From assembly GCF_026167665.1 (NCBI RefSeq), contig NZ_CP098740.1:5084001-5148000 (forward strand): a stretch of 64,000 nucleotides of DNA. Reading direction: 5' to 3'. The DNA is from Streptomyces drozdowiczii (GTDB lineage: Bacteria; Actinomycetota; Actinomycetes; Streptomycetales; Streptomycetaceae). The notes under the pieces were generated by a model. That model worked only from the letters and a program-made list of their open reading frames with translations. It was not told the DNA's origin and ran no database searches. Below are positions 41,001-56,117 of this stretch, one piece after another; within the stretch, counting starts at the first letter, position 1; each line of letters starts with the position of its first letter. Made by a program: the position numbers and the translations under genes.

Positions 41001-41215
41001 GCTTCATCTCGCAGCCGCTGGCCGTCGTCGTCATCGGTGGTCTGATCACCTCGACGCTGCTGACGCTCCTCCTGGTGCCGACGCTGTACGCGATGGTGGA
41101 GCTCCGCAAGGAGCGCCGCCGGAACAAGAAGGCCGCCAAGCGGTCCGCGCAGACCGGCGCCCCGGCCCCGGCGGAGGCGCGGGAGTCCGGCGAACCGGAG
41201 CCGACGCGGGCCTGA
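38067..41215 (+). CDS. RND/HAE1 family efflux transporter, apparent frameshift
   Basis: Inner-membrane proton-driven RND transporter, 1,049 residues once repaired. The sequence breaks at a CCCC run (39556-39559) after VVPVLSYWFLRAP. One extra C continues it into KGTAEDPDKARREAEEKEAR, then ATRRRITSVVIALVVLFG, the start of the second half. Both halves show the expected fold: SWLSRFSLAQRALIGLI, LQVSVTPDDKKLAAAGLNAA, two periplasmic domains, and the proton-relay helix with LSLNMLTLGALTIAIGRVVD. Distinct partners (membrane-fusion protein) are not nearby, as in other Gram-positive HAE1-type proteins. ATG 38067 has GAAAGAGA upstream. Substrate unknown; linked by position to the two-component system. 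Confidence 0.88.
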
Positions 41216-41235
41216 TCCAGCCGGTATCCCACACA

Positions 41236-41291: not shown

Positions 41292-44200
41292 TCAGGCGGC
41301 CCCGCTGAGCGCCTTGATCATGCGGAGCCACACCTCCCCGTACGGCTCCGCGTACCGGACGCTGAGCCCCGCGATCTCCCGCAGCAGCCGGGCCCGGACC
41401 TCCTCCGGGGCGCGCGGGATCAGGTCGGCCAGCTCCTCCGGTTCGACGCCCTGGGCGGCCCCCGAGAGGACCATGCTCACCTGGGCATGGGCGAAGGAGG
41501 ACAGCCGGTCCTCGAAGACCTGGCCCTCGATGGCGGCAGCGTGCATCAGGGAGGTGCCGTCTCCGTCCTCCAACGCCCGTTCCACGTAAGCCTGGAGCGC
41601 GTCCCGGTCCTCCACCAGCGCGTAGGCCGCGTCCATCCCCTCCGCACGGGAGACGTCCAGGACGGCGACGTGCGAGAGCGGGGTGTCCGGGGACGGCCGG
41701 ACCTGGAGGAGGCGCGGGTGGTCCTGGAGGTAGGCCCGCGACTCGGCCCAGGACTCGCAGCCCACCCACTCCGCCAGCTGCCCCGAGAGGATCAGCGGAT
41801 CGTAGGCGGAGGTCACGCCGTGGTCGAGTACGAACTCGCGGAGCGCGGCGTGCTGTTGTGCGGTGGCCGGGTCCAGGAGCGCCAGCTCTTCGAGCGCCGT
41901 CGCGGCCTCCTCCCCGGCGAGCGTGTCGGCGTACCGGGACCAGAGGTCGCGCGACGTGGTCCAGCCGGGCGCGAACATCCAGGTGCCCACGGCTTCCAGC
42001 GTGGCCGCCGAGAGCGAGAGCCAGTCGGGCGCCGGGCCGTGGGTCTCCGCCTCCCACGCCTCGCGCACCTCCTGCCGGTCGCCGTGGGCGCGCAGCGCAC
42101 GCCGTGCCCGTACGGTCACCAGGTCGGGGCCGTCCTCCGGTTCGAGACCGGCGTCCCGCCCGAGGAACGACACGAGCGCGCGTACGCCCTCCGAGGGCAG
42201 CGGATCGGGGCAGTCCAGCAGGAAGATGCTCCGCTCGACGCCGACGCGCCGGGCGGTCGACGGGTGGGCTTCGGCGAACTCCGCCGCGCACTCCTCGTGC
42301 GCCTCGACCGCCGAGGCGTGGTCGCCGGTACGGGCGAGCGCGCGGGCCAGCTCCCCGAGCCCCTGCACCAGATCGTCCTCGAAGGCGCGCGGGTTCTCCA
42401 GGGCCAGGGCGCGGCAGACGGACAGCGCTTCCCGGGCCGTACTCACGGCTCCTTCGGGGTCCCCGTTCATCCCCCGCAGCTTGCCGAAGTTCCGCAGGGC
42501 GAGCGCCAGGTCGGCACGGTGCGCTCCGCTGTGCTCGTCCACGAGCCGGCGCAACAGGACGACACTTTCGTCGGCCGCCGCCAGGGCTTCCTTCGGGCTG
42601 CCGGTGCTGTTGAGGTTCGCGGCCAGGGCGCCGAGGGCCCTCGCGAGCGGGGAGCGCAGGACGGGCGCGTCGGGGACGAGTTCACGCAGGAGCGCGATGG
42701 CCTCTGTCGCGACGGACAGTCCTTCCTCCGGCTCGCCGGCCGGGTTCAGATGGGCGGCGAGGTTGGCGAGCGAGACGGCCAGCTCCCGCCGGTGGACGGC
42801 GGGCTGTTCCGCGGCGAGTTCCCGGCGGATCGCGACCGACTCCCGGCCCGCCGCGAGCGCCCCCGACAGATCGCCCAGGACCGCACGGTGATTGGCTACG
42901 TTGTTGAGGACCAGCGCGTACTCGGGGAGGAACGCCTCCGGGTCCTCGCCTGCGAGACGCCCGTAGAGCGTGGCCGCCTCCTCGACGTGTGCCAGGGCCT
43001 CCGCCGGTTGGCCGTCGGCGGTCAGGTGCATCGCGAGGTTGTTCAGCATCCCGGCCAGCCCGGGGAGGGAGGCCGTCGGCCGGTGCTTGACCAGATCGCG
43101 CTGGAGCTGCAGGGCCTGGCGCGCGAGCAGCACCGCCGAAGCGCGGTCCCCGGCGGCGGCGGTCTTGTTGGCCAGGGACGTCACGGCCCGGGCGAGATCC
43201 GGCTGGAAGACCTCCATGTGCTCGTTGGCGAGCCCGGCGAACACCCGCGCGGCTTCCCGAGCGGACGCGAGCGCCCCCTCGTGGTCCCCGACGGCGGAGA
43301 GCCGGTCCGCGAGGTTGTGCAGTGCCGCGGCCAGTTGCTCCCGGAACGTGTCCGGGTGACGCTCGACGAGCTCCCGGCAGATCTCCACGGACTCCCTCGC
43401 GGGGGCCAGCGCCCTCGCGGTGTCGCCCACGTCCGCCCTGTGCACGGACAGATTGGCCAGGGAACCCGCCAGGGAGGCCCGCAGGGCGGCCGGATGGCGC
43501 TTGATCACCCTCCGGTTGACCTCGACCGCCTTCTCCGCCTGCGGCAGCGCGTCCGCGTGACGTCCGACGGCCCTGAGGGCGTGGGCCAGGCCCGCCAGGG
43601 AGGAGGCGAGGGGGCCCAGGTGCTCGTCGGGGCGCGCGGCGGCGAGGTCGGTGAAGATCTCCACCGCCTCCTGCGCGGGGGAGACGGAGGCCCGGCGCTC
43701 CCCGAGTGCCGTCAGCACCACCGCCAGGCCGTTCAGCGCGGAGGCGAGCTGGGGGCGGAAGACAGCCGGCTCCTTCTCGGACAGCTCCCGGAAGATGACG
43801 ACGGCGTCCCCGGTGAGGACGAGCGCACCCTCCAGGTCACCGATCTCGTGGACCCGCCTGCCGAGCGTGGCGAGGGCCAGCGCGAGGTCGGCCAGGGACG
43901 CGCTGTCCCCAGCCTCGGAGCGGCTCCGCAGGAGCGCGACCGCCTCGCGCGCCGGGAGGAGCGACCCCTCGCGGTCCCCGACGTCGGCGCACCGGTTGGC
44001 GACGTTGACCAGGCTGCGGACGAGTTCCGTCGTACGGGACCCGGGGGCGGCCTCCTCCAACGTCCGGAAGAGGTCCGCCGCCTCCTGCGCCGCCCGCAAC
44101 GCCTCGGCCGGGTCCCCTTCCTGCCCCAGCTGCTCCGAGTAGCGGTGCAGCGCATGGCCCAGGACCGGCACCGCGTCCGGCCCGAGCCGCTTGACGAACT

Positions 44201-46322
44201 TCCGCAGCGCCTCGATCCCCGGCGCGCCCGCCCAGCACGCGTGCCGCGCGAGACTCCGCCTCACGTACGGGTTCACCGCCGCCCAGCCGCCGTCCGCCGC
44301 GCGCCGCTCGGCATGCGCGACGAGCGCGGCGAGCACCACCTCCGCGGCCTCGGCGCCGCCCGCCACCGGCCGGGCCTCCAGGTGCGAGACGAACTCCCGG
44401 TGGTACAGGCGGTACACCGCCTGCCCGTCCTCCGCGCACTCCACGATGTAGCGCCCGTACGCGGACAGCACCCAGTCCACGTCGCTCTCGTCGTACGGCG
44501 TCGCCCGGCCGCCCAGCGCTCCGGCGACCTCCTCCCAGACGCCCCCGGCGGGCATCCCGCGCCCGGCCGTCCACGCCAGCGCGGTCAGCAGGTCCCGTGC
44601 GGCGGACGGGAGTTCGGTGCCGTCCGCCAGGACCCGGACCGGGCCCGCCCGCAGGTCGTCCTCGAACGCGGCCCCGATGGACTCCGGCAGACCGGCCTGC
44701 CAGGCGTCGTCCCCGGCGGCCTGCCCCTCCGCCAGCAGCGAGCCGGTGACCAGCCGGGCGAACAGGAACCCGCCGTCCACCGCCGTGGCGCGCGCGGCGA
44801 CCGCCTCACCCGCCTCCCGCGCCCGGTCCGCCGGGAAGCCGCCCGCCTCGCACCGGCGGGCCACATACGCGGCGATGTCCTCCTCGGTGCCCGGCTCCTC
44901 CTCCAGGTCCGCGGTGGTGACGGCCGCCCCGATCAGCCGGGCCAGCGCGTCCGGCAGGGTCTCGTCCGGGTGCCCGTCGTCCGCCAGCCGGGCGCGGAAC
45001 GCCCGCTCGCGCGACCCGAGCAGGACCGGGACCGCCCGGCTGAGCGGGAAGACCAGCTCCTCGATCATGGCCTGCAGATGCTCGACGGGCACTTCGTCCA
45101 GGCCGTCCAGGACCAGCACCGGACGCCGGTCCAGCTCGCGCAGCTCGCCCCGGAAGTCGTCCGGGTTGCGCGGCTCCGGCAGCCCGAGCCGCAGGGCCAG
45201 CTCCCCGGCGGCCTGAACCGGACTGAGGCCCCGCAGGTGCACCGCCGCGAGCGGGTGCCCGGGGCCGGGGCCGGGGTCGCCCTCCCGCAGGCCGCCCTGC
45301 GCCTCGGTCTCCGCGCGGCGCTCCGGGTCGGTGAGCGTGGCGATCCGGCCCAGCACCGCCGACTTGCCGCAGCCGGCCGGGCCGGTCACCAGGAAGAGCC
45401 CGGCCTCGTCCGCCTCGATCCAGTCGGTGATCCGGCGCAGGACCCGCTTCCGGCCCGTGAAGAACGAGCCCTCCTCGCGGAACCCGACGCCCCGGGCCGC
45501 GAGCACCAGGTGCTCCACCAGCCGCGCGGGCGCCCCGGGCACATGGCGCGGGTTCGGGAAGACCGGCCGCCCGGTGCCGAGGGCGGCGGGGACCGGCGTC
45601 TGCCCCTCGCCGCGCCACCGCTCGCCGAGCGCGGCGAGCACGTCCGGCCCGCTGACCCAGGCGTTGTGGGCGCTCCACGCGGAGCGGTACTCGCTGGTGG
45701 CCGGGCCCTCCCGCAGCACCTCGGCCAGCGCGTCGAGCAGCGGCCCGGCCCCGTCCGAGGTCTCGCCGCGCCGGCAGCTCGTCATGATCCCGAACCACTG
45801 CACCCGCCCGGGCGGCGCGGAGGTGGTCTCCCAGCGCCGCAGGGCCTTCTCCAGCCCTCGGCCCACGGCGTCCCCGGCATGGCAGGCGTCGATGAGCACC
45901 AGGATCTGGTCGGCGCCGGACGCCACGGCCTCGTTGACCAGCGTCTCGGGCGAGACCCCGTGCCGCAGGGCGCGCGCGTCCCGGGCCACTTGCTCGACGT
46001 CGAGGTCCAAGTCGCTCAGCGCCAACCGGAGTTCGTCGTCCACCAGCACGCCGTGCCCGGACCACACGATGATCGCGGGCTTCCCGGCGCCGGACGCGCT
46101 CCAGGCGGTGAGGTCCCGGTCGAAGTCCGCCCAGGAGGGGTTGCCGCCGCCGGCCATGCGGGTCGCGATCCCCAGCGCCTCAAGGCGGTTGACGATCCCC
46201 TCCATCTGGGCCGTCGCACCGGTCAGCCGCGGGAAGGTCCGCTCGTCGGCGTACGTCTCACACACCACGCACAGCGCGGTCCCCACGGCGTCGCCGCCCA
46301 CCACATCCGCCTCATCCGCCAT
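41292..46322 (-). CDS. Caspase-like protease - NACHT ATPase - TPR protein (paralogue 1)
   Basis: A 1,676-residue protein with four parts. (1) Residues 10-230: caspase-like (C14) domain, catalytic His90 in IIVWSGHG and Cys147 in LVLIDACHAG. (2) Residues 285-560: STAND/NACHT P-loop ATPase, Walker A GPAGCGKS (314-321) and Walker B LVLDGLDE (403-410), then FPLSRAVPVLLGSRER. (3) About 760-1,330: TPR-like array of 46-residue units. (4) C-terminal 330 residues shared with the paralogue at 48320, no named family. ATG 46322 has GGAG seven bases upstream. Known STAND proteins sense an invader with the repeats, oligomerise, then fire the effector domain; for this one that is inference. No frameshift seen. 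Not a housekeeping gene for this locus. Confidence 0.9.
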   Translation of the reverse strand: MADEADVVGGDAVGTALCVVCETYADERTFPRLTGATAQMEGIVNRLEALGIATRMAGGGNPSWADFDRDLTAWSASGAGKPAIIVWSGHGVLVDDELRLALSDLDLDVEQVARDARALRHGVSPETLVNEAVASGADQILVLIDACHAGDAVGRGLEKALRRWETTSAPPGRVQWFGIMTSCRRGETSDGAGPLLDALAEVLREGPATSEYRSAWSAHNAWVSGPDVLAALGERWRGEGQTPVPAALGTGRPVFPNPRHVPGAPARLVEHLVLAARGVGFREEGSFFTGRKRVLRRITDWIEADEAGLFLVTGPAGCGKSAVLGRIATLTDPERRAETEAQGGLREGDPGPGPGHPLAAVHLRGLSPVQAAGELALRLGLPEPRNPDDFRGELRELDRRPVLVLDGLDEVPVEHLQAMIEELVFPLSRAVPVLLGSRERAFRARLADDGHPDETLPDALARLIGAAVTTADLEEEPGTEEDIAAYVARRCEAGGFPADRAREAGEAVAARATAVDGGFLFARLVTGSLLAEGQAAGDDAWQAGLPESIGAAFEDDLRAGPVRVLADGTELPSAARDLLTALAWTAGRGMPAGGVWEEVAGALGGRATPYDESDVDWVLSAYGRYIVECAEDGQAVYRLYHREFVSHLEARPVAGGAEAAEVVLAALVAHAERRAADGGWAAVNPYVRRSLARHACWAGAPGIEALRKFVKRLGPDAVPVLGHALHRYSEQLGQEGDPAEALRAAQEAADLFRTLEEAAPGSRTTELVRSLVNVANRCADVGDREGSLLPAREAVALLRSRSEAGDSASLADLALALATLGRRVHEIGDLEGALVLTGDAVVIFRELSEKEPAVFRPQLASALNGLAVVLTALGERRASVSPAQEAVEIFTDLAAARPDEHLGPLASSLAGLAHALRAVGRHADALPQAEKAVEVNRRVIKRHPAALRASLAGSLANLSVHRADVGDTARALAPARESVEICRELVERHPDTFREQLAAALHNLADRLSAVGDHEGALASAREAARVFAGLANEHMEVFQPDLARAVTSLANKTAAAGDRASAVLLARQALQLQRDLVKHRPTASLPGLAGMLNNLAMHLTADGQPAEALAHVEEAATLYGRLAGEDPEAFLPEYALVLNNVANHRAVLGDLSGALAAGRESVAIRRELAAEQPAVHRRELAVSLANLAAHLNPAGEPEEGLSVATEAIALLRELVPDAPVLRSPLARALGALAANLNSTGSPKEALAAADESVVLLRRLVDEHSGAHRADLALALRNFGKLRGMNGDPEGAVSTAREALSVCRALALENPRAFEDDLVQGLGELARALARTGDHASAVEAHEECAAEFAEAHPSTARRVGVERSIFLLDCPDPLPSEGVRALVSFLGRDAGLEPEDGPDLVTVRARRALRAHGDRQEVREAWEAETHGPAPDWLSLSAATLEAVGTWMFAPGWTTSRDLWSRYADTLAGEEAATALEELALLDPATAQQHAALREFVLDHGVTSAYDPLILSGQLAEWVGCESWAESRAYLQDHPRLLQVRPSPDTPLSHVAVLDVSRAEGMDAAYALVEDRDALQAYVERALEDGDGTSLMHAAAIEGQVFEDRLSSFAHAQVSMVLSGAAQGVEPEELADLIPRAPEEVRARLLREIAGLSVRYAEPYGEVWLRMIKALSGAA

Positions 46323-46359
46323 CGGGCGCTCCGCCTTCCCGTACATACGCCGCTGAAGT

Positions 46360-46408
46360 GGACAGCAGCGTATGCACGGATGGGACGCGGAGGGCCGGTC
46401 CGGACAAA
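46360..46408 (-). promoter_or_regulatory. Shared two-part promoter/operator motif, copy 1
   Basis: Upstream of the first caspase-like gene, reading its strand: TTTGTCCGGACCGGCCC (46408-46392), a 19-base spacer, then TACGCTGCTGTCC (46372-46360), ending 37 bases before the start codon. Copy 2 is at 54766-54815 upstream of the lipase gene. The inner GTCCGGAC is a palindrome; TACGCT could be a -10. Identity of both blocks in non-coding DNA indicates co-regulation. Confidence 0.7.
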
Positions 46409-46440
46409 CTCGACCCTTTCCGGTCCCCGGGTGATAAGGA

Positions 46441-46478
46441 AACGGCCTGTCCCACACACGCGTGTGGGACGGGCCGTT
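46441..46478 (-). terminator. Terminator after DUF397 gene
   Basis: A 17-bp stem (46441-46457 with 46462-46478, one G-U pair) with a four-base loop, ten bases beyond the DUF397 stop. It insulates the promoter of the first caspase-like gene. Confidence 0.85.
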
Positions 46479-46487
46479 GGCGCTGCC

Positions 46488-46682
46488 CTACTTCAACGAC
46501 GAGACGAACTCGCCCCAGGCGGCGGCGTTGACGACGAGCGAGGGCCCGGTGGGGTTCTTGCTGTCGCGTACGGGGACGAGGCCGGGGAAGTCGTCGGTGA
46601 TCTCGACGCATTCGCCCCCGTTGGTGTTGCTGTAGCTGCTGCGGCGCCAACGGGCGGAACTCAGCTCGAGGGAGTGAGTCAT
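46488..46682 (-). CDS. DUF397 domain protein
   Basis: A 64-residue protein, MTHSLELSSARWRRSSYSNT then GGECVEITDDFPGLVPVRDSK and SLVVNAAAWGEFVSSL. This is the compact beta-sheet DUF397 fold found only in actinobacteria, nearly always next to a helix-turn-helix/DUF5753 protein, as here. Its ATG overlaps the stop of that gene (ATGA), so they are made together. In known pairs (for example in the WhiJ-like group) the small protein is thought to modulate the DNA-binding partner; I infer the same. Targets may include the neighbouring caspase loci, but this is not shown. Confidence 0.92.
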   Translation of the reverse strand: MTHSLELSSARWRRSSYSNTNGGECVEITDDFPGLVPVRDSKNPTGPSLVVNAAAWGEFVSSLK

Positions 46683-47506
46683 GGTCGGTAGTCCTCCATC
46701 GCGGTACGGATCATTGCCGCCGACTCGGCCAGGGAGTGCGAGTTGGCGCGGAGTACGTCGTACTGCCGCCGCCACTTCTTCACCGCGTCCGGGTCCTCGT
46801 AGAGGTGACCGGCCTCGATGCTCTCCTCGTACGCCACCGAGGTGCCGTCCGGCAGGGTCAGCAGAGTCAGCGCGCCACCCAGCAGCGAGTGCGGCCCCGC
46901 ACTGAACGGCATCACCTGAACCTTACTGTTCGGAGTATCCACCTGCTCCAACAGCGAGGCCAGTTGCTGGTGCATGCAGGACCGGCTGCCCACCTGCCGC
47001 CGCAGTACGGACTCGTCGATGATCGCCCACCGGAACGGCGGATTCGACGATTGTTGCCGCTCCTGTCGGGACATGCGGGCGGTGACGCGCTCATCGACCA
47101 TCTCGGCGGTCAGGTGTTCCTGACGACGGAGCAACTCACGGGCGTACTGCTCGGTCTGGAACAAGCCGGGCAGCGCCTGCGCGCCGTACTGCTCTATGAC
47201 CTCGGCCCGGGCCTCGAAATTCATGTACCGCTTGTACTTGTCGGGATGGATGTCCTGCTTGGCGAGTTCGTAGAGGCCCGTGAAGTACTGGTCCGTCCCG
47301 AAGGCGATGTCCAGACAGCTGGGCATGTCCGGCGGTGGCATCAGTTCGGCCGTCTCGATGCGGGCGAGCGTGCTCTTGCTGGAGTTGACGATGTCCGCCA
47401 GCTGTACGAGGGAGAGGTTCGCCCGCTCGCGGTGGCGGCGTAACTCCGAGCCGAAGTAGTGGCGCGTGGAGGCGAAGGGGGAAAGCGGCTGGGGCCTGAA
47501 CGTCAT
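46679..47506 (-). CDS. Helix-turn-helix regulator with DUF5753 domain, contains a TTA codon
   Basis: A 275-residue DNA-binding protein. The XRE helix-turn-helix is at about residues 18-72 (LRRHRERANLSLVQLADIVN, SSKSTLARIETAE). The rest is the DUF5753 ligand-like domain (IEQYGAQALPGLFQTEQYAR, RWAIIDESVLRRQVGSRSCM). Start ATG 47506. Leu22 (bases 47441-47443) is encoded by TTA, the only in-frame TTA I found in the genes of this window. In Streptomyces UUA needs the bldA tRNA, which matures late in development, so translation of this regulator is probably tied to differentiation. It pairs with the DUF397 gene and sits between the two caspase-like loci. Confidence 0.92.
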   Translation of the reverse strand: MTFRPQPLSPFASTRHYFGSELRRHRERANLSLVQLADIVNSSKSTLARIETAELMPPPDMPSCLDIAFGTDQYFTGLYELAKQDIHPDKYKRYMNFEARAEVIEQYGAQALPGLFQTEQYARELLRRQEHLTAEMVDERVTARMSRQERQQSSNPPFRWAIIDESVLRRQVGSRSCMHQQLASLLEQVDTPNSKVQVMPFSAGPHSLLGGALTLLTLPDGTSVAYEESIEAGHLYEDPDAVKKWRRQYDVLRANSHSLAESAAMIRTAMEDYRP

Positions 47507-47656
47507 GGAGCGGGCCTTCCGTGTGTCCCGTGTGGAACGTCGGGACGCGGCGGCCCTGTTGGGGAGATCCGCCACAGCGCGACGATGGGGGCACACACCG
47601 TAACCAGCGGGTACGACCGGGGACCAGAGCGCTCCCCGAACGGAGGCGGAGGCGAC

Positions 47657-48025
47657 ATGATGTTCGACGCGCAAGGGAACGCGATGCGACTGCTCCCCTG
47701 GGTCGGCGAGAGCGGCACCCCGTGCTACCTGAGCAGCGACGACCCGGGCAGCCGGATGTCACGGCTGGCCGACGAGGTGGAGACGGACCTGCTGGACTCG
47801 GCCCAGTACGTGTTGCGCGAAGCGCGGTCGCTGTTGGCCGAAACGGGTGTGGGCACGCGCGAGTTGAGGTTCACCGGGGTCCGCCTGGCGGAGTCGTTGC
47901 AGGACGCGTTGCGGATCGCGGAGAGCCGGGGATATCGGTTGGCTCCCGCCGTCCTTACGCATGCGGAAGCCGGGGAAACCACGGCTTGCGGGGCGGGCCC
48001 CCTGGCCGGTACCAGCGAGGCTTGA
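47657..48025 (+). CDS. Small conserved protein beside the HTH/DUF397 pair
   Basis: A 122-residue protein, MMFDAQGNAMRLLPWVGESG then MSRLADEVETDLLDSAQYVL, AETGVGTRELRFTGVRLAES and a Gly/Ala tail. It has a good ribosome site (GGAGGCGAC) right before ATG 47657. The shape is mostly helical, with no membrane segment and one Cys near each end. I recall small proteins of this kind next to HTH/DUF397 genes in Streptomyces, which supports its reality, but the function is unknown. It is divergent from the regulator and its end overlaps the convergent small gene at 47955 by 71 bases. Confidence 0.7.
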   Translation: MMFDAQGNAMRLLPWVGESGTPCYLSSDDPGSRMSRLADEVETDLLDSAQYVLREARSLLAETGVGTRELRFTGVRLAESLQDALRIAESRGYRLAPAVLTHAEAGETTACGAGPLAGTSEA

Positions 48026-48323
48026 GCGGCTTGCCCGGCGGGACGGGACGGTCGGCGGCGGCGATGAGGAAGTGGGCTTCGGGGAGGTGACCCGGGGCGC
48101 TGTGCAGCACGGAGCCGCCTTCGGTGAGGTTGCGGTAGAAGACCCGGGTGTACGCACACGCGTGCGCGTGGGGGACCGTGGCCGCCAGGTACTGCACCAG
48201 GTTCTCGGCCCGGGCGGCCGGAAGGACGTCGAGCCGCAACAGGTGCCCGAACCGGGCGTGCGTCACGCTGAGCTGCACGCCCCGGTGCTCCTCATGCAGC
48301 GTGGGCGAGGCGGCAGCGGTCAC
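47955..48323 (-). CDS. Small protein of unknown function, coupled to the second caspase-like gene
   Basis: A 122-residue protein from GTG 48323: VTAAASPTLHEEHRGVQLSV, then HARFGHLLRLDVLPAARAEN, and a basic Pro/Arg/Trp-rich tail (PPGKPLKPRWYRPGGPPRKP). No named domain is recognised. Its GTG overlaps the TGA of the repaired giant gene by four bases (GTGA), so the two are translationally coupled. That coupling, plus the missing free ribosome site, suggests it is a partner (adaptor, inhibitor or target) of the caspase-NACHT protein. The 3' end overlaps the convergent gene at 47657-48025, so one of the two tails may be longer than real. Confidence 0.6.
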   Translation of the reverse strand: MTAAASPTLHEEHRGVQLSVTHARFGHLLRLDVLPAARAENLVQYLAATVPHAHACAYTRVFYRNLTEGGSVLHSAPGHLPEAHFLIAAADRPVPPGKPLKPRWYRPGGPPRKPWFPRLPHA

Positions 48324-51300
48324 CCGGTGGTGGCCAGTGCCTGAATGATCCGCACCCAGTGCGCGGCGTGCTGGGTCGCGTGGGCCGCGCTCAGGGCGGC
48401 GGTCTCGGAGATCAGCCGGTGTCGTACATCGGGCGGGGCGTCGGCGACGAGGGGACGAGGCTGTCCGGGTCGGCGTCCTCGGGGGTGCCCGCGAGGAGCA
48501 GCGCGGCCTGGTGGTGGGTGCGGGCGGAGAGCTGGTCGTCGTACACCTCGTCCTCGATGGAGGCCGCGTGGCGGAGGGCTTCGGAGTCACCGGTGGTGAG
48601 GGCGTTGTCGACGTACTGCTGGAGGGCGGTGCGGTCGCGTACGAGGGCGTAGGCCGTGGGGATGTCATGGGCGCGGGCTGCGTGGAGGAGGGCGGCGGGG
48701 GTGGAGTGGGGCGGGGTGAGGTGGAGGAGGTCGGGGTGGGCTTGGAGGTACTGCTCGGACTCCTCCCAGGTGTCGACCTCTGCCCAGTCGGCGAATTGCT
48801 CGCCGAGGATGCGGGGGCGATAGGCGGCGTACGCGCCTTGGGCAAGGATCTCCTGGCGGAGCGCCTCGTGGTCGGCTGCGGAATCGGGGCCGAGGAGTGC
48901 GTACTCGGTGAGGGCTACCGCGCCTTCGGGGCTGCTCAGAAGCTCGGCGTGTTGGGTCCACTGGGCGTACGAGTCGGCCCAGGTGGACGTGTACAGCCAT
49001 GCGGCGGCCGAAGCCAGCGCCTGAGGGGAGAGCGTCAGCCAGGCAGGGGGCGCCACGGAGAATTCCTCTTGCCAGACCGCTGCGACTTCCTCGCGGTGTT
49101 CGACGTGCTCCCGCACGTACGAGCGGAGGGCGTTCCGGGCTTGGAACGTCACTTCGTCCGAGGCTTCGGAGGCCGGGATGTTCGCCAGTTGAGCGAGACG
49201 TCGGAGGCCCGCCGTGGTGGAACACTCCTGTCTCCGCATCAGGAACTCAGCCAGCCCGAGAGCGAGAGTTCGGCCGGCTGCCGGGCGCTCGGTGCTGAGA
49301 TCGGCGATGACTCGCTCGTACATCCGGACCGCGGCGGAGGGATCTCCGGCGCCGGCGTAGTGGTTGGCGAGGTTGCTCAGTGACGTGGCGAGGTTAGGGA
49401 GGTAGGCGCCGGGGTGTTGTTTGGCGAGGGTACGGAAGAGGTTCGTGGCTTCGTGGGCAGTGGTGAGCGCGTGGTGCTGGTCTCCGGTTTCCGCGAGACA
49501 GATGGCGAGGGTGTTGAGGGAGGTGGCGAGGTTGGGGGTGTAGGCGGCGGGGTGTTGTTCGGCGAGGGTGCGCCGGATGTCTACGGCTTCGCGCGCAAGG
49601 GCGAGTGCGCCTTGGTCGTCTCCGGTGATGGAGAGTCGGACAGCGAGGTTGCTGAGGGAGGTGGCGAGGCCGGGGGTGAAGGCTGCGGCGTCCTGTTCGG
49701 CGAGGGTGCGGAAGAGGCCGGTGGCTTCGCGAGCGGCGGCGAGTGCCCCCTGGTGGTCTTTGGTGTTGGCGAGGTGGCTGGCGAGGTTGTCGAGGGAGCC
49801 TGCGAGGTCGGCAGCGTGGATGGCGGGGTGTTGTTCGGCGAGGGTGCGTCGGATGCGTACGGCCTCGTGGGCGGGGGCGAGTGCCCCTTGGTGGTCTCCG
49901 GTCTCCGAGAGACGAATGGCGAGGTTGTTGAGGGCGCCGGCGAGGTTGGGGGTGTGGGTGGCGGGGTGTTGTTCGGCGAGGGTGCGTCGGATGCGTACGG
50001 CTTCGTGGGCGGGAGCGAGTGCGTCCTGCCGCTCTCCGGCGTTGGCGAGGCAGATGGCAAGGATGTTGAGGGAGCTGGCGAAATCGGGGGTGAAGACTGC
50101 GGCGGCTAGCTCAGCCAGAGTGTGGAAGAGGCCGGTGGCTTCGCGGGCGGCGGCGAGGGCCCGCCGGTGGTCTCCGGCGCTGGTGAGGCGGATGGCGAGG
50201 TTGTTGAGGGCGGTGGCCAGATCGGGGGTGAAGGCTGCGGCGTCCTGTTCGGCGAGGCTGCGGAAGAGGCCGGCGGCTTCGCGAGCGGCGGTGAGTGCGC
50301 CTCGCGGGTCACCGGCGTCGATGAGGTGGTTGGCGAGGTTGTTGAGGGCCTTGGCGAGGTTGGGGGTGTGGATGGCGGGGTGTTGTTCGGCGAGGGTGCG
50401 TCGGATGCGAACGGCCTCGTGCGCGGCGGTGAGTGCGTCCTGCCGGTCTCCGGTCTCTGCGAGACAGATGGCGAGGGTATCGAGGGAGGTGGCGAGGTTG
50501 GGCGCGTTGGTGGTGGGGTGTTGTTCGGCGAGGGCGCGCAAGAGATGGGCGGCTTCGCGCGCCGGTGCCAGTGCGCCCTGACGGTCTCCTGCAGCCGTGA
50601 GGTGGTTGGCGAGGTTGTTGAGGGCGCTGGCGAGGTCGGCGGTGTGGGTGGCGGGGTGTTGTTCGGCGAGGGTGCGTCGGATGCGTACGGCTTCGTGTGC
50701 GGCGACCAGTGCGCTTGGGTGTTCGCCGGTGTCGGCGAGGTGATTGGCGAGGTTACTGAGGGAGGTGGCGAGGTTGGGGACGTTGGTGGTGGGGTGTTGT
50801 TCGGCGAGGGCGCGCAAGAGATTGGTGGCTTCGAGCGCCGGTGCCAGTGCGCCTTGACGGTCTCCTGCGGCGGCCAGGCGGCCGGCGAGGTTGCCGAGGC
50901 CGACGGCGAGGTCGGCGGTGTGGGTGGCGGGGTGTTGTTCGGCGAGGGTGCGTCGGATGCGTACGGCCTCGTGCGCGGCGGCGAGTGCGTCCTGCCGGTC
51001 TCCGGTCTCTGCGAAACAGATCGCGAGGCTGTTGAGGGAGTCGGCCAGGTCGGGGCGGTAGGTGTTCGGATCGCTCTCGTTGAGCTTTTTGTAAAGTCCG
51101 ACTGCCGCGCGCGCGTACGTCAGGGCCTCGTCCCGTAGTCCTGCGTTCGACAGAATGAAGCACAATCCGTGCAGCCCTTCGGCCAGGTGAGGCACTCCAC
51201 ATTCCTCATCCCAAGCCGCTACCCCTCGCAGCACCTCCATCCCCGCCCCACCACACTGCACCGCATGCCGCACCAGCCCTCGCGTCACATACGGATCCAC

Positions 51301-53327
51301 CCCCGACCAGTCGCCCACCCGCCCCTGCCGCTTGACCAACTCCACCAGCGTCCGCACCACCACCTCACCCGCCGCCGCCCCGCCCGGCCCCTCCCGCCGC
51401 CGGAGATGGGCCACGAACTCCCGGTGATACAGGCGATACACCGCCTGCCCCTCCTCCGCGTCCTCCACGATGTAGCGGCCGAAGGCGGACAGCGCCCAGT
51501 CCACGTCGGTCTCGTCGTACTCGACGCCCCCGCCCAGCGCCCCGGCCACCGCCTCCCACACCCCGCCCGCAGGCATCCCCTGACCCACCGTCCAGGCGAG
51601 CGCAGCCAGCAGGTCCCAGGCCGCCGAGGGGAGTTCGGTGCCGTCATCCCGTACGCGCACCGGGGCCGCCCGCAGCTCGTTCTCGAACGCGGCGTCGATG
51701 GAGTCGGGCAGATCCGTCAGCAGGGACCCGTCCTCCCCTGACGCGGCCCGTGCCAGGACCGTACTGCTGACCAGGCGGGCGAACAGGAAGCCGCCGCCGA
51801 TGTCCGTGGCCCGCTCCGCGATCGCCGCGCCGGCCTCCCTGGCCGGGTCCTCCGCCATCCCCGCCGCCTCGCACCGGCGCCGCACGTACTCGCCGATGTC
51901 CTCCCGCGTGTGCGGTTCGTCTTCGAGGTCGACGGTCGTCACGTCCGCCCCGACAAGACGGGCCAGAGTCTCGGGCAGGGTCTCGCGGTTCTCCTTCTGA
52001 CTGCGGAACACCCGCTCTCGCGACCCGAGCAGCACCGGCACCGACCGGCTCAGCGGGAACACCAGCTCCTCGATCACGCTCTGCGTGTGCTCGGCCGGCA
52101 CCTCGTCCAGGCCGTCCATGACCAGGACCGGCTGAGGCGACAACTCCCGGACCTCGGCCCGGAAGGCGTCCGTGCTGCGTGGCCGGCGCAGCCCCAGGGC
52201 ATGGGCCAGCCGTTCCGCCGCCTGCAACGGGGTCAGGTCGCGCAGGTGCACCGCCGCGAGGGTGCGTTCCGCGCGGACGCCCGGGTCCGGGTCACCGTCG
52301 CGCAGTGCGCCGCTCGCGACAGCCCGCTCCCGCTGCTCCGGGTCCGCGAGCGTGGCGATACGGCCCAACACGGCGGACTTCCCGCAACCGGCGGGCCCGG
52401 TCACCAGGAACAGGCCGGGCGCGTCCTCGTCCAGCCACTCCACGATCCGGCCCAGCACCCTCGTACGGCCGGTGAAGAACCAGCCCTCCTCCCGATGGCC
52501 GACCCCGCGTGCGGCCTGCACCAGGTGCTCCACCAGCCGGGCCGGGGCCTCGGGGGAGTGGAGGGGGTTGGGGAAGGCGGGGCGCCACTCGCCGAGGGTG
52601 GCGGGGACCGGTGTCTGGCCCTCGCCCTCCCACCGCGTGGCGATGGCGGCCAGCAGGTCCGGGCCGCTGACGAGCGCGTTGTGGGCGCTCCACGCGGAGC
52701 GGTATTCGTCGCCCGCCGGACCTTCTCTCAGGACCTTCGTCAAGGCGGTCAGCAGCGGCCCGCTGCCGTCCGAGGTCTCATGGCTCTGGCAACTCGCGAG
52801 AAAGCCTAGCCACTTGGCGTGGCCGGGTGGCGCGGACTCCTCCTCCCAGCGCCCAAGAGCCAGCCTCAGGGCCGGGACCGCGCCGCCACCCGCGTAACAG
52901 GTATCGATGATCACCAGGACGTGTTCGGCGCCGGAACCCACGGCCTCGCTGACCAGGTCGTCGGCGCTGACGCCGTGCCGCGTCACCCGTGCCTTCCACT
53001 GGCCGGGGTCGTCGACCGGCTTCAGGTCCGAGAGCACAAGCCGCGTCTGACCATCGACCCGCACCCCGTGCCCCGACCAGATGACCAGCGCCGGTTTGGC
53101 GTCACCCGTGGCCACCCACCCCTCGGACCACTCCTCGCTCTCCGCCCGAAACGCGGCCGACGACGGATTCCCACCCCCACCTTCCGCGCCTCGTACCCCA
53201 GCCCCTCCAGCAGCCCCACGATCTCGTCCATCTGGGTCACCGCCCCCACGAGCCGGGGAAACTTCCCCCCGTCCGCGTACTCCTCGCACACCACACAAAG
53301 CGCCGTCCCCGCCGCCGCACCCGTCAT
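48320..53327 (-). CDS. Caspase-like protease - NACHT ATPase - TPR protein (paralogue 2), two apparent frameshifts
   Basis: About 1,669 residues once two single-base gaps are filled: one near the N terminus (CCCCC run 53174-53178, or CCC 53170-53172) and one near the C terminus (GGGG run 48451-48454). Without them the first 50 residues and last 40 are lost, yet both match paralogue 1. Parts: caspase-like domain with His about 87 in LVIWSGHG and Cys about 144 in VIIDTCYAGG; NACHT ATPase (GPAGCGKS, LVMDGLDE, FPLSRSVPVLLGSRER); about thirteen 46-residue TPR units (49345-51140); shared C-terminal region. ATG 53327 starts two bases after the lipase stop. The TPR array is more homogeneous than in paralogue 1. 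Confidence 0.88.
49345..51140 (-). repeat. 138-bp tandem coding repeats (13 units, TPR array)
   Basis: Thirteen 46-codon units lie in tandem inside the second giant gene, with a consensus like DRQDALAAAHEAVRIRRTLA followed by EQHPATHTPDLA and LNNLANHLAETG. The plus-strand block GGCGGGGTGTTGTTCGGCGA recurs near 49553, 49829, 49967, 50381, 50657 and 50933, all at multiples of 138. High nucleotide identity suggests recent duplication or gene conversion between units. Confidence 0.85.
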
Positions 53328-53329
53328 CG

Positions 53330-54732
53330 TCAGCCCCGCTCCAGAACCAGCACCAACGCGGTCATCACGACATTGGCCGAAACACGCGTCCCGATCCGCA
53401 CCCGATGCCCGCCCGCCGGCAGGCCGTTGATCCGGAGGGTGTACACCCCGCCACCCCGGTTCGTCATAGTCCGCACCGGACCGCCCTCCACCCCCGCGAA
53501 GACCGCGACCCGGTCGTGCCCCCGCACATCCGCAGGCACCGTGGCCCGGATCTCGTACGCCTCCCCTCCACCAGGATCTCCGGCGCCTCCACCGAGAGCG
53601 GCACATCCTCGTCCTCCGAGCCCCGGTGCACCGGCGGCTCCGGGGTGAGCCAGTTGTAGAGGGCCTGGCGGACGGCCTTGTTGTTCTGGAGGGAGCCGTG
53701 CTTCTCCCACGGGGTGTACGCATGCCGCCCCGCCCCCGCCGCGCGGCTGGAGAGGTCGGGCACCCGTCCGTCGCCCCCCTCGTCCACCCCGTCGATGGTG
53801 AGTAGCGCCCGCAGCGTCTCGCCCTCCACCTCGGCCGTCGTCGGCGTCGGCTGCCGCACCCCGCCCACCGGGACGTACTCCACCCCGTACCGCGCACCCG
53901 CCTCCGAGGCCCGCAGATCCGCATGGAACAGGCCCGCCTGGCGGAGCAGCTCCTCATCCACCCCGGGCAGCCCCGTGACCTCACGCGCGTACCGCAGCCC
54001 CGACCCCCCACCCGCCGCCAGGCACGCGTAATCCGGCGTGAGCTGGTGCAGCGACGGCAGGCTCCGGGCGAAGGGCGTGAGGTCGAGGCCCACCGGGCCG
54101 ATCCCGTAACGCATCCCGTTGACCAGGTACACCAGCGCGTCCAGCGACCCCCGGTACGGCGTCCCCAGCGTGACCACCCGGCGCGTGACCTCCGCGCCCC
54201 CGCACTGCTCGACGTAGCTCCGGGTGACCAGGCCGCCCATCGAGTGGCAGAGGAAGACCACCTTCGCGTCCCGCCGGTCGGGCCGCGAGGCGCGCCAGCG
54301 GCCCAGCTCCTCGTCCACGCGCTCGGCCAGCCGTTCCGCGTTGTAGCGGCAGGACAGCCGCCAGTCGTACGCGAAGCCGACCAGGTTGGCCGGGACGTCG
54401 GCCGCCTCGCCCGGCAGGCGGCGTTGGAGAGTGAAGTTGCCTTCCAGCCAGTTCAGCAGGGCGGTGTACCCGTCCACGGGCTTCCACACACCCGGCAGCG
54501 CGTGCACATCGGACATCAGCCCGGTGGGCCGTACGCCGTCGCCGGGGTGCTCGTCGCCCAGGCCGGCCGGGAGCGTCAGGCCCTTGACCGAACCCCCGAA
54601 CGTGCGGATGCCCCGCACCAGGGCCTTCCCGGAGGCCCCCCAGACCTCGTGCCCGTCCGCGTCCGCGAGCGTGCTGCCGAGGATTCCCGGTACGACGACC
54701 ACCAGGTCCTCGGCCCTGCTGCGCTGCCCCAT
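53330..54732 (-). CDS. LCAT-type lipase/acyltransferase with C-terminal beta domain, apparent frameshift
   Basis: About 467 residues once one base is added to the CCCC run at 53563-53566. Without it the C-terminal 80 residues change frame and become meaningless. Alpha/beta-hydrolase of the lecithin:cholesterol acyltransferase group: DLVVVVPGILGSTLADADGH (oxyanion region), VGFAYDWRL, nucleophile Ser164 in VFLCHSMGGLVTRSY, acid in GGDGRVPDLSS and His in YTPWEKHGSL. No signal peptide, so cytoplasmic. A C-terminal beta-sandwich-like part follows (EAYEIRATVPADVRG, GGVYTLRINGLPAGGHRVRI). ATG 54732 has GGGGGA seven bases upstream. It heads an operon with the caspase-NACHT gene two bases downstream; a membrane-attacking effector is plausible, unproven. 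Confidence 0.85.
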
Positions 54733-54870: not shown

Positions 54871-56058
54871 CTACGGCAGCGCCAGCATCCGCTCCAGCGC
54901 CAGCTTCGCGTACTTCTCCGTCTCCGGGTCCACCACGATCCGGTTGACCTCCTTGCCCTCGGCCAGGGACTCCAGGGTCCAGACCAGGTGCGGCAGGTCG
55001 ATCCGGTTCATCGTGGAGCAGAAGCAGACCGTCTTGTCGAGGAAGACGATCTCCTTGCCCTCGGGGGCGAAACGGTTCGCCAGGCGGCGGACGAGGTTCA
55101 GCTCGGTGCCGATCGCCCACTTCGAGCCGGCCGGGGCCGCCTCCAGGGCCTTGATGATGTACTCCGTCGAGCCGACGTAGTCCGCGGCGGCCACGACCTC
55201 GTGCTTGCACTCGGGGTGCACCAGCACGTTGACGCCGGGGATGCGCGCGCGCACGTCGTTGACGGAGTCGACCGAGAAGCGGCCGTGCACCGAGCAGTGG
55301 CCGCGCCACAGGATCATCTTCGCGTTCCGCAGCTCCTCGGCGGTCAGACCGCCGTTCGGCTTGTGCGGGTTGTAGAGGACGCAGTCCTCCAGGGACATGC
55401 CCATGTCCCGCACGGCGGTGTTGCGGCCCAGGTGCTGGTCCGGCAGGAAGAGCACCTTCTCGCCCTGCTCGAAGGCCCACTCCAGGGCCCGCTCGGCGTT
55501 GGACGAGGTGCAGATCGTGCCGCCGTGGCGGCCGGTGAACGCCTTGATGTCCGCGGAGGAGTTCATGTACGAGACGGGCACGACCTGCTCGGCGACACCC
55601 GCCTCGGTCAGCACGTCCCAGCACTCCGCGACCTGCTCGGCGGTGGCCATGTCGGCCATCGAGCAGCCCGCCGCCAGGTCCGGCAGCACGACCTTCTGGT
55701 CGTCGGTGGTGAGGATGTCCGCCGACTCGGCCATGAAGTGCACACCGCAGAAGACGATGTACTCCGCCTCCGGGCGGGCCGCGGCGTCCCGGGCGAGCTT
55801 GAAGGAGTCCCCGGTCACGTCCGCGAACTGGATGACCTCGTCGCGCTGGTAGTGGTGCCCCAGGACGAAGACCTTCTCGCCCAGCTTCTCCTTGGCCGCG
55901 CGGGCGCGGGCCACCAGGTCCGGGTCGGACGGGGAGGGCAGGTCGCCGGGACACTCGACACCGCGCTCGCTCCTGGGGTCGGCGTCGCGGCCCAGCAGGA
56001 GCAGGGCGAGCGGCGTCGGCTGAACATCGAGATCCTGGACGGGGTGGGCCGTGGTCAC
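54871..56058 (-). CDS. nadA: Quinolinate synthase A
   Basis: A 395-residue iron-sulfur enzyme that condenses iminoaspartate with dihydroxyacetone phosphate to quinolinate for NAD synthesis. Motifs include VLGHHYQRDEVIQFADVTGD, YIVFCGVHFMAESADILT with a cluster Cys, CVLYNPHKPNGGL, VHPECKHEVVAAADYVGSTE and the C-terminal cluster Cys in TVCFCSTMNRIDL. GTG 56058 has AAAGGG about eight bases upstream; GTG 56067 is also possible. No nadB or nadC follows. A GCTAT-type inverted repeat lies 60 bases upstream. The end lies next to the lipase operon's promoter, so this core gene marks the right border of the accessory region. Confidence 0.95.
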   Translation of the reverse strand: MTTAHPVQDLDVQPTPLALLLLGRDADPRSERGVECPGDLPSPSDPDLVARARAAKEKLGEKVFVLGHHYQRDEVIQFADVTGDSFKLARDAAARPEAEYIVFCGVHFMAESADILTTDDQKVVLPDLAAGCSMADMATAEQVAECWDVLTEAGVAEQVVPVSYMNSSADIKAFTGRHGGTICTSSNAERALEWAFEQGEKVLFLPDQHLGRNTAVRDMGMSLEDCVLYNPHKPNGGLTAEELRNAKMILWRGHCSVHGRFSVDSVNDVRARIPGVNVLVHPECKHEVVAAADYVGSTEYIIKALEAAPAGSKWAIGTELNLVRRLANRFAPEGKEIVFLDKTVCFCSTMNRIDLPHLVWTLESLAEGKEVNRIVVDPETEKYAKLALERMLALP

Positions 56059-56117
56059 GTCACGCACCCTTTCTTCTGCGGACTTCTCTGTGGAGAAAGC
56101 CTTTTCGTCTAATTGAC

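Follow-up and report, generated by a model that had tools for sequence, protein, structure and literature searches.

What could two giant proteins, each joining a caspase-like protease to a NACHT ATPase and a TPR array, be doing beside an LCAT-type lipase? This question is raised by a locus in a 64,000-nt stretch of the Streptomyces drozdowiczii genome (GCF_026167665.1, NZ_CP098740.1, 5,084,001-5,148,000 of the forward strand), the whole of which is called the window here. A preliminary description proposed a STAND-type conflict or death locus whose protease might act through the lipase. The features on which the argument depends are the following, in window coordinates.

38067..41212, plus strand: RND transporter gene, one core flank, broken near 39555
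41292..46322, minus strand: locus A, one open frame (caspase, NACHT, TPR array, all-helical C-terminal region)
46035-46064 and 45870-45893, minus strand: stretches with the caspase His and Cys of A
45321-45383 and 45093-45119, minus strand: stretch with Walker A, and Walker B, of A
46488..46682, minus strand: DUF397 protein adjoining the XRE regulator (PF04149, E 4.3e-21)
46679..47506, minus strand: XRE regulator (HTH_31 and DUF5753) with TTA at codon 22 (47441-47443)
47955..48323, minus strand: CHAT-like gene remnant (P0124), two internal stretches missing, the His/Cys positions among them
About 48320-53327, minus strand: locus B overall, caspase-NACHT-TPR paralog of A, downstream of the lipase
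48320..48451, minus strand: C-terminal end of B in a third frame, with the same ending as in one-frame relatives
48451..53178, minus strand: main frame of B (caspase, NACHT, TPR array, C-terminal region)
53050-53079 and 52885-52908, minus strand: stretches with the caspase His and Cys of B
52333-52398 and 52102-52128, minus strand: stretch with Walker A, and Walker B, of B
53178..53327, minus strand: N-terminus of the B caspase domain, ATG at 53325-53327, in a frame differing from the rest of B
53330..53560, minus strand: C-terminal Ig-like beta-sandwich of the lipase, in another frame (break between 53560 and 53563)
53563..54732, minus strand: catalytic domain of the LCAT-type lipase (PF02450)
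54226-54249, 53758-53781 and 53689-53709, minus strand: lipase triad, with Ser in CHSMGG, Asp in EGGDGRVP and His in WEKHGSL
54871..56067, minus strand: nadA, the other core flank (TIGR00550, 324 bits), syntenic in relatives

Domain architecture of the encoded proteins

A and B both show the domain order proposed for the two giant proteins: a caspase-like domain marked by WSGHG and ID[AT]C motifs, then a NACHT/STAND P-loop ATPase, TPRs in an array and, last, an additional C-terminal region. Locus A most likely starts at 46322 rather than 46457, because the resulting 1676 amino acids resemble its 14 closest matches (1674-1685 amino acids). In an alignment of 122 proteins, composed of A, B and 120 listed of 236 matches, the caspase Cys is present in 112 and the His in 111, the remainder being gaps, and the Walker A Lys and Walker B Asp are each present in 121. 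A and B share the His-Cys dyad of C14 caspase-like proteases, and combine Walker A and B motifs with a C-terminal repeat sensor as STAND/NACHT NTPases do.

Profile searches for these domains gave a mixed result. The LCAT model and the TPR arrays of A and B exceeded the Pfam cut-offs, but the NACHT and AAA_16 models matched A and B below theirs, and the C14 model was borderline for B only; PF00656 reached 21.7 bits against a cut-off of 21.4 for B in the genome search, fell below it by hmmscan, and was not listed for A by hmmscan. The C-terminal region is all-helical in its predicted structure, with 22 helices and a mean pLDDT of 92.5, and this model had no significant match in the PDB (best E 0.05).

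The LCAT identity of the lipase was confirmed by PF02450 (E 1.1e-7, 31.9 bits against a cut-off of 21) and by a triad whose Ser, Asp and His are unchanged in all 53 aligned homologs, so that it belongs to the LCAT-type lipases with a predicted enzyme activity. Since Foldseek with the lipase model returned mainly Ig-like and PKD domains that match its C-terminus, it is Pfam and the motifs that support the assignment as an alpha/beta-hydrolase, and the Ig-like fold is that of a structure model of P0126. The highest 19-residue hydrophobicity means of the lipase, A and B are 1.25, 1.46 and 1.53, respectively, and none has a strongly hydrophobic stretch.

Two smaller elements had been regarded as parts of the system. 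The small protein P0124 does not qualify as a novel, distinct partner; it is what deletions have left of a CHAT-like gene, of which full counterparts with 231-234 amino acids occur in two relatives (L053 and L064; PF12770, E 3.1e-6 and 9.7e-6), and a word-based protein search with it returned itself as the sole match (39 candidates scored). The regulator does contain one in-frame TTA codon, but TTA control was rejected as a trait of the system because the codon is present in 2 of the 9 XRE orthologs compared (window included), the other carrier being one close strain.

Genomic setting and reading frames

The locus is an accessory, sporadic insertion between nadA and the RND gene, as had been suggested from its core flanks, since relatives without the locus at that site exist. 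The two flanking genes are separated by 73-2680 bp in 17 of 20 relatives, and a comparison across the genus found a strong match to the locus in just 14 of 295 genomes, its own included. It is not fixed among relatives, and its His/Cys and Walker residues are conserved. The twin copy, A and B, is genuine in this window, whereas other loci have just one copy at this site. A phylum-wide profile search matched 4 of 396 genomes (own included), which says little about the range because only 4 candidates were scored per genome; at most 8 were scored per genome in the order-wide search. On plasmids, 19 records matched, all below 60% identity and at 25-29% in the 15 listed, and phage records contained no match to a 429-aa caspase-NACHT piece. 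A and B fall outside Avs and the known PADLOC defence families, whose models gave weak matches only (E 8e-4 to 0.03), over the P-loop or caspase stretch alone. A 740-aa minus-strand ORF over the RND gene (MMPL740) was discarded as an antisense artefact, as were its matches in relatives.

The lipase and B do follow each other in an operon, as previously described, with the B start codon 2 nt past the lipase stop and the B stop overlapping the start of the CHAT-like remnant by 4 nt, but this operon is not intact as sequenced. Three frame breaks had been missed, at the lipase tail, the caspase N-terminus of B and the C-terminus of B, whereas the close lipase homologs are one frame of 467 amino acids. 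If the breaks are not assembly errors, the sequence as it stands would encode neither a functional B nor a functional lipase, whereas A is intact. One explanation is that the B operon in this strain is a decaying pseudogene cluster, so that only A acts, or nothing does. The breaks themselves, the CHAT remnant with its internal deletions and the likewise shortened N-terminus of P0095, a relative of B, are in line with decay, which we nevertheless consider rather unlikely. Each of the three breaks falls within a short G/C run, and a break of the same kind interrupts the RND gene. That gene reads as a single open frame in L053, a close relative, and all 17 relatives in which it could be located gave a single near-full-length match, which makes assembly error the likelier cause. 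Furthermore, a homopolymer comparison, performed with swapped sequence orders and added control pairs, showed the window to be one base short in all six clean run differences from strain CB01249 over ~26 kb, four of them outside the lipase-B operon, while eight control pairs of relatives gave seven clean run differences in ~136 kb. Both ends of B are in one frame in 9 of its 13 other listed relatives. The question of decay concerns this copy alone, and is compatible with the explanation preferred below for the family.

Linkage of the lipase to proteases

The lipase offers the best lead to what the locus does. In 24 of 27 loci, it is encoded immediately upstream of the caspase gene and on its strand; these include three from Nocardiopsis with 47-49% lipase identity and one (L058) in which the lipase is split over two frames. 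Distances among lipases and among caspases correlate with r 0.94 over 46 pairs, a value reached in 0 of 2000 permutations and due mostly to shared descent; with nadA taken into account in 13 loci, a partial r of 0.67 remains. This pairing, kept down to Nocardiopsis with co-varying distances, strengthens the earlier idea of a conflict locus in which the protease might act through the lipase.

The idea gains further from distant lipases that recur next to other proteases or as fusions with STAND ATPases. A search that used just the lipase as query found 32 relatives outside the window, of which 30 adjoin a protease or share a cluster with one. Their neighbours are caspase-STAND genes in 23 cases, transglutaminase-like-STAND genes in three and CHAT genes in two; two more lipases form fusions with a STAND ATPase and share their cluster with an EAD1-trypsin gene, and two (L110 and L130) have neither a protease nor a STAND neighbour. 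All 19 caspase-STAND neighbours checked have both the caspase dyad and the Walker motifs; 7 of them were also seeds of the profile used. In several distant loci, the lipase and caspase genes are on opposite strands. The occurrence of lipase relatives beside differing kinds of protease suggests a membrane-damaging defence module under protease control.

We therefore lean, with somewhat better than even confidence, towards a bacterial NLR-like conflict module in which the protease of the sensor licenses a lipase effector. The C-terminal TPR/helical region, replaced by WD40 in many relatives, would detect a trigger, perhaps a phage or other element, upon which the NACHT/STAND ATPase might oligomerise and the N-terminal caspase-like protease of the giant protein be switched on. 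This protease would then license the co-encoded lipase, most likely by cleavage and perhaps in the cytosol, and the lipase could attack membrane lipids so that the hypha is stopped or killed before the invader spreads; the outcome would probably be abortive infection. A common cleavage site across the lipase family was sought and rejected: Arg370 (P0126 numbering), in a low-confidence linker of the model, is Arg in 52 of 53 near-clade lipases, but of the 19 distant lipases linked to caspases only L118 has an Arg aligned with it. Arg370 can be regarded as a weak lead to a candidate site.

This lack of a site conserved across the family fits an unlikely but credible alternative, namely that the STAND oligomer turns on the effector lipase by recruitment or allostery, while the caspase acts on other substrates such as the sensor itself. 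The C-terminal fusion of the lipase to a STAND ATPase in two loci is also consistent with direct coupling; those loci, however, carry a trypsin gene too, and a protease adjoins the lipase in 28 of the 30 others. Moreover, the protease family changes while the lipase stays, which points to a link between protease and lipase. It is improbable that the protease itself kills by cleaving host proteins, the lipase being an independent second toxin or a travelling accessory. The lipase is not obligatory, because A occurs at L057, one of the 27 loci, although that genome has no lipase match at E <= 1e-20, and the lipase in the window adjoins B and not A, but the linkage and co-variation hold also across changed gene orders. 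That the locus regulates lipid turnover or the death of hyphal cells in development or housekeeping and does not serve immunity, as the multicellular host and the adjoining XRE-DUF397 pair with its TTA codon might suggest, is very improbable given the few genomes with a strong match, the closeness of nadA and RND in most relatives and the restriction of the codon to one close strain.

Beyond the proposed licensing of the lipase in this locus, we tentatively suggest that LCAT-type lipases in general could serve as an effector module gated by proteases. Such a bacterial "pro-lipase" would parallel gasdermins and pro-nucleases, and would have been coupled to four protease families and to STAND sensors whose repeats are exchangeable (TPR or WD40) or absent. 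Caspase and CHAT belong to one clan, so that the four families represent three unrelated folds (caspase and CHAT; transglutaminase-like; trypsin). Because the lipase is paired again and again with proteases of differing kinds, the idea lends itself to a direct test, with one effector and several activators. If the lipase is a protease-licensed effector, a lipid-attacking class would be added to the protease-activated killers of bacterial immunity, and the lipase family could serve as a marker gene for finding many uncharacterised NLR-like systems in actinobacteria.

Comparison with known systems

Caspases fused to STAND NTPases and other domains are described for the EACC1-caspase and EACC2-caspase systems in PMC7159879 and PMC8195603, similar to the arrangement here. 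A and B score 30.1 and 22.5 bits with the EACC1-type caspase model NF047832 (NCBIfam), below its cut-off of 140, and the EACC partner models had no match among the locus proteins scanned, so that the locus does not belong to the EACC1-caspase systems. In PMC7159879, which also treats VMAP ternary (vWA-MoxR) systems, caspase VMAPs are stated always to have an alpha/beta-hydrolase neighbour, and a caspase beside such a hydrolase is seen here as well. The locus proteins scanned gave no match to VMAP-C, vWA or MoxR, which places them outside the VMAP ternary systems, and the one VMAP-C match of the genome, at 2276283, is far from the window. By motif, a caspase-like VMAP frame stands beside a GHSLGG/AHSLGG hydrolase frame in 4 of 20 VMAP regions; a common family with the lipase was rejected, those hydrolases having no lipase profile match even at E 10.

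Protease-activated pro-nucleases, one with a caspase, are known from the account of nuclease-protease pairs and canu in PMC12799240. There, too, effector and protease are encoded separately, the effector gene as a rule preceding that of the protease in the trypsin systems, and one effector family recurs with differing proteases including caspases. Here, in contrast, the effector would be a lipase rather than an MBL-fold nuclease, and the resemblance lies in the gene arrangement, the lipase being a putative pro-enzyme. The CARD-NLR or bacterial gasdermin-type systems, as portrayed in PMC13236601, likewise combine a protease, an NLR-like ATPase and a membrane effector, and phospholipases are described there as alternative effectors. 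No CARD or gasdermin model is among the Pfam matches of the locus proteins; here, the protease is a caspase that forms one protein with the NACHT-TPR sensor, and an LCAT-type lipase is the putative effector. The system can be seen as a variant of the kind to which the CARD-NLR, nuclease-protease and VMAP-type systems belong.

Gene layout and accessory nature of the locus

The system is encoded on the minus strand. Next to nadA comes an LCAT-type lipase, followed by the giant protein B, a small ORF, the gene pair for an XRE regulator and a DUF397 protein, and finally the giant protein A. Its two flanks are:

54871-56067, minus strand: nadA
38067-41212, plus strand: RND gene, beyond A on the other side, with a frame break near 39555

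A is a single open frame of 1676 residues if it starts at 46322, which is similar to its 14 closest matches (1674-1685 aa). The preliminary description proposed one domain order for both giant proteins, and each of them was indeed found to combine a caspase-like domain with a NACHT/STAND ATPase and a TPR array. The Pfam models for caspase and NACHT match near or below their cut-offs, and the identification therefore leans on motifs as well. In an alignment of 122 proteins (A, B and 120 listed of 236 matches), 112 carry the caspase Cys and 111 the His, gaps accounting for the remainder, and the Lys of Walker A and the Asp of Walker B are each retained in 121. The ten proteins with a gap at the Cys are P0098, P0100-P0104, P0108, P0115, P0116 and P0119; five of them are 1353-1361 aa long, and the whole caspase domain may be missing there. 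The C-terminal region of A is predicted with high confidence to be all-helical, and its model had no significant match in the PDB.

An accessory insertion had also been suggested, and the presence and absence of the locus among relatives agrees with this. Matches at E <= 1e-30 occur in 14 of 295 same-genus genomes, own genome included; a search of fewer genomes gave matches at E <= 1e-3, most of them distant, in 22 of 61, again with its own. The window holds ~13.7 kb between nadA and the RND gene. Among 20 relatives, 17 have the two genes 73-2680 bp apart (11 of them by no more than 219 bp), and in the other three the RND gene did not turn up within the 19 kb read. None of the 20 stretches matched the lipase or the caspase-STAND profile at E <= 1e-5. 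Furthermore, of 27 loci from a scan of genome contigs, 11 have nadA on one side of the system and the RND gene on the other, the remaining loci being truncated by contig ends or located elsewhere.

Frame breaks and the small third gene

Six-frame reading of the lipase-B operon revealed three breaks, each at a short G/C run: one in the lipase (near 53560), one in the caspase domain (near 53178) and one at the C-terminus of B (near 48451). Decay and assembly error were both considered, and the sequence comparisons make assembly error the more likely cause. Lipase homologs close to that of the window are in one frame (467 aa), and nine of the 13 further B relatives listed have both ends in a single frame; the N-terminus of B is likewise short in P0095, a relative from one other strain. 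The RND gene is in one frame in the close relative CB01249 (L053) and a single near-full-length match in all 17 relatives where it was found, and its split near 39555 is a sign of assembly errors in the window's genome. It is the sole two-frame case among 15 CB01249 ORFs located in the window, a set from which the gene caller missed the lipase and B and of which at least two are probably antisense. In ~26 kb, the window and CB01249 show six clean differences in the length of runs of at least four bases, and in every one the window is a base shorter; four of the six lie outside the operon. Eight control pairs of relatives showed seven clean run differences in ~136 kb.

Around 35985, a 422-aa CB01249 gene aligns from residue 19 onward only, the alignment ending at a G/C run from which the window lacks one base, possibly another frame break. 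Similar short runs lie at 41235 and 61024.

The small protein P0124, previously described as unknown, returned only itself in a word-based search of ~5.8 billion proteins with 39 candidates scored. Its place is taken in other loci by a CHAT-like gene, of which two internal stretches, the His/Cys positions among them, are absent from the window copy. This gene is in one frame in L053, L055, L064 and L065 (231 aa in L053, 234 aa in L064) and carries a frame break in L066, while L070 and L079 have diverged relatives. The protein matches PF12770 just above the cut-off and the PDB CHAT protein 8tl0 at E 3.6e-10. Because the CHAT His is replaced by Arg, with the Cys kept, in six of seven loci (L053, L055, L064-L066 and L070; L079 retains His), the occasional third gene of the system is probably an inactive CHAT protein. 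In these six loci, it sits downstream of the caspase gene. A weakly CHAT-like gene (L122, 13663-14499; E 8.9e-4, below cut-off), truncated by the stretch end, was also seen after a transglutaminase-like STAND-TPR gene; the third gene may therefore not be restricted to caspase loci.

The lipase and its protease partners

In the contig scan, queried with a six-sequence alignment, the lipase lies immediately before the caspase gene in 24 of 27 loci, split over two frames in L058. The exceptions, L053, L055 and L057, are copies of A preceded by XRE-DUF397. The first two genomes carry the lipase on another contig, adjoining a B-type gene (L063 and L062, respectively), and the L057 genome had no lipase match at E <= 1e-20. 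The distances of lipase and caspase are correlated, with r 0.94 in 46 pairs and none of 2000 permutations as high, and the partial r is 0.67 once nadA is allowed for (13 loci); the correlation largely reflects shared descent.

The unexpected feature, beyond the sight of the preliminary description, is that the lipase is repeatedly paired with different kinds of protease. With the lipase P0126 as sole query, 197 genomes of the order gave 34 matches in 27 genomes, two being the window's own; the neighbourhoods of the other 32 were taken from L081-L084 and L110-L137. The partner is a caspase-STAND protein in 23, and the dyad and Walker motifs are present in all 19 outside L081-L084; of 14 such partners searched with Pfam, nine have WD40 repeats and five no named repeats. 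Three (L122, L132 and L133) have a transglutaminase-like-STAND partner, called by Pfam below cut-off for L122 and L132 and by 55% identity to L122 for L133, all with a GTCLDL motif. The partner is a CHAT protein in L112 and L113, and a lipase from outside the order (L139) also comes after the end of a CHAT gene. In two further loci, STAND ATPase and LCAT lipase form one protein, and the cluster includes an EAD1-trypsin gene:

L127, 3296-8032: STAND-LCAT fusion
L129, 3612-7892: STAND-LCAT fusion, with an EAD1-AAA gene also in the cluster

No protease partner was found in the neighbourhoods of L110 and L130. The 30 of 32 lipases with a protease partner do not represent 30 independent events, the genomes being related. 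Caspase and CHAT are grouped in a single clan, and three unrelated protease folds is thus the safe count.

The P0126 model (pLDDT 82.5) ends in an Ig-like sandwich, and a low-confidence linker (366-375) connects this C-terminal part with the hydrolase domain. Arg370 of the linker is kept in 52 of 53 near relatives, and the same column is Arg in only one of 19 distant caspase-linked lipases. Bacterial caspase relatives prefer Arg, and one guess would place a cut by an Arg-specific caspase-like protease at this residue.

Comparison with known systems

The locus is best read as an accessory NLR-like conflict module with the lipase as its likely effector. Cleavage by the partner protease would be the putative means of lipase activation, and a role in phage defence is likewise putative. 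Searches of a collection of open-access papers gave no account of a lipase-caspase-STAND pair or of the several protease partners of the lipase.

According to PMC7159879, an alpha/beta-hydrolase is always encoded next to VMAP genes of the caspase type. This arrangement was recognized by motif in 4 of 20 fetched VMAP regions, but the lipase profile did not match their hydrolases at E 10. In the window's genome a single VMAP-C match (G000:C1:2276283-2276981) lies far from the locus, and at least one is present in 101 of 121 same-genus genomes searched. Pro-nucleases are switched on by trypsin-like or caspase partners, and similar activation of other enzyme classes has been suggested as possible, in PMC12799240. 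In addition, PMC13236601 refers to earlier work for phospholipases that serve CARD-NLR systems as alternative effectors.
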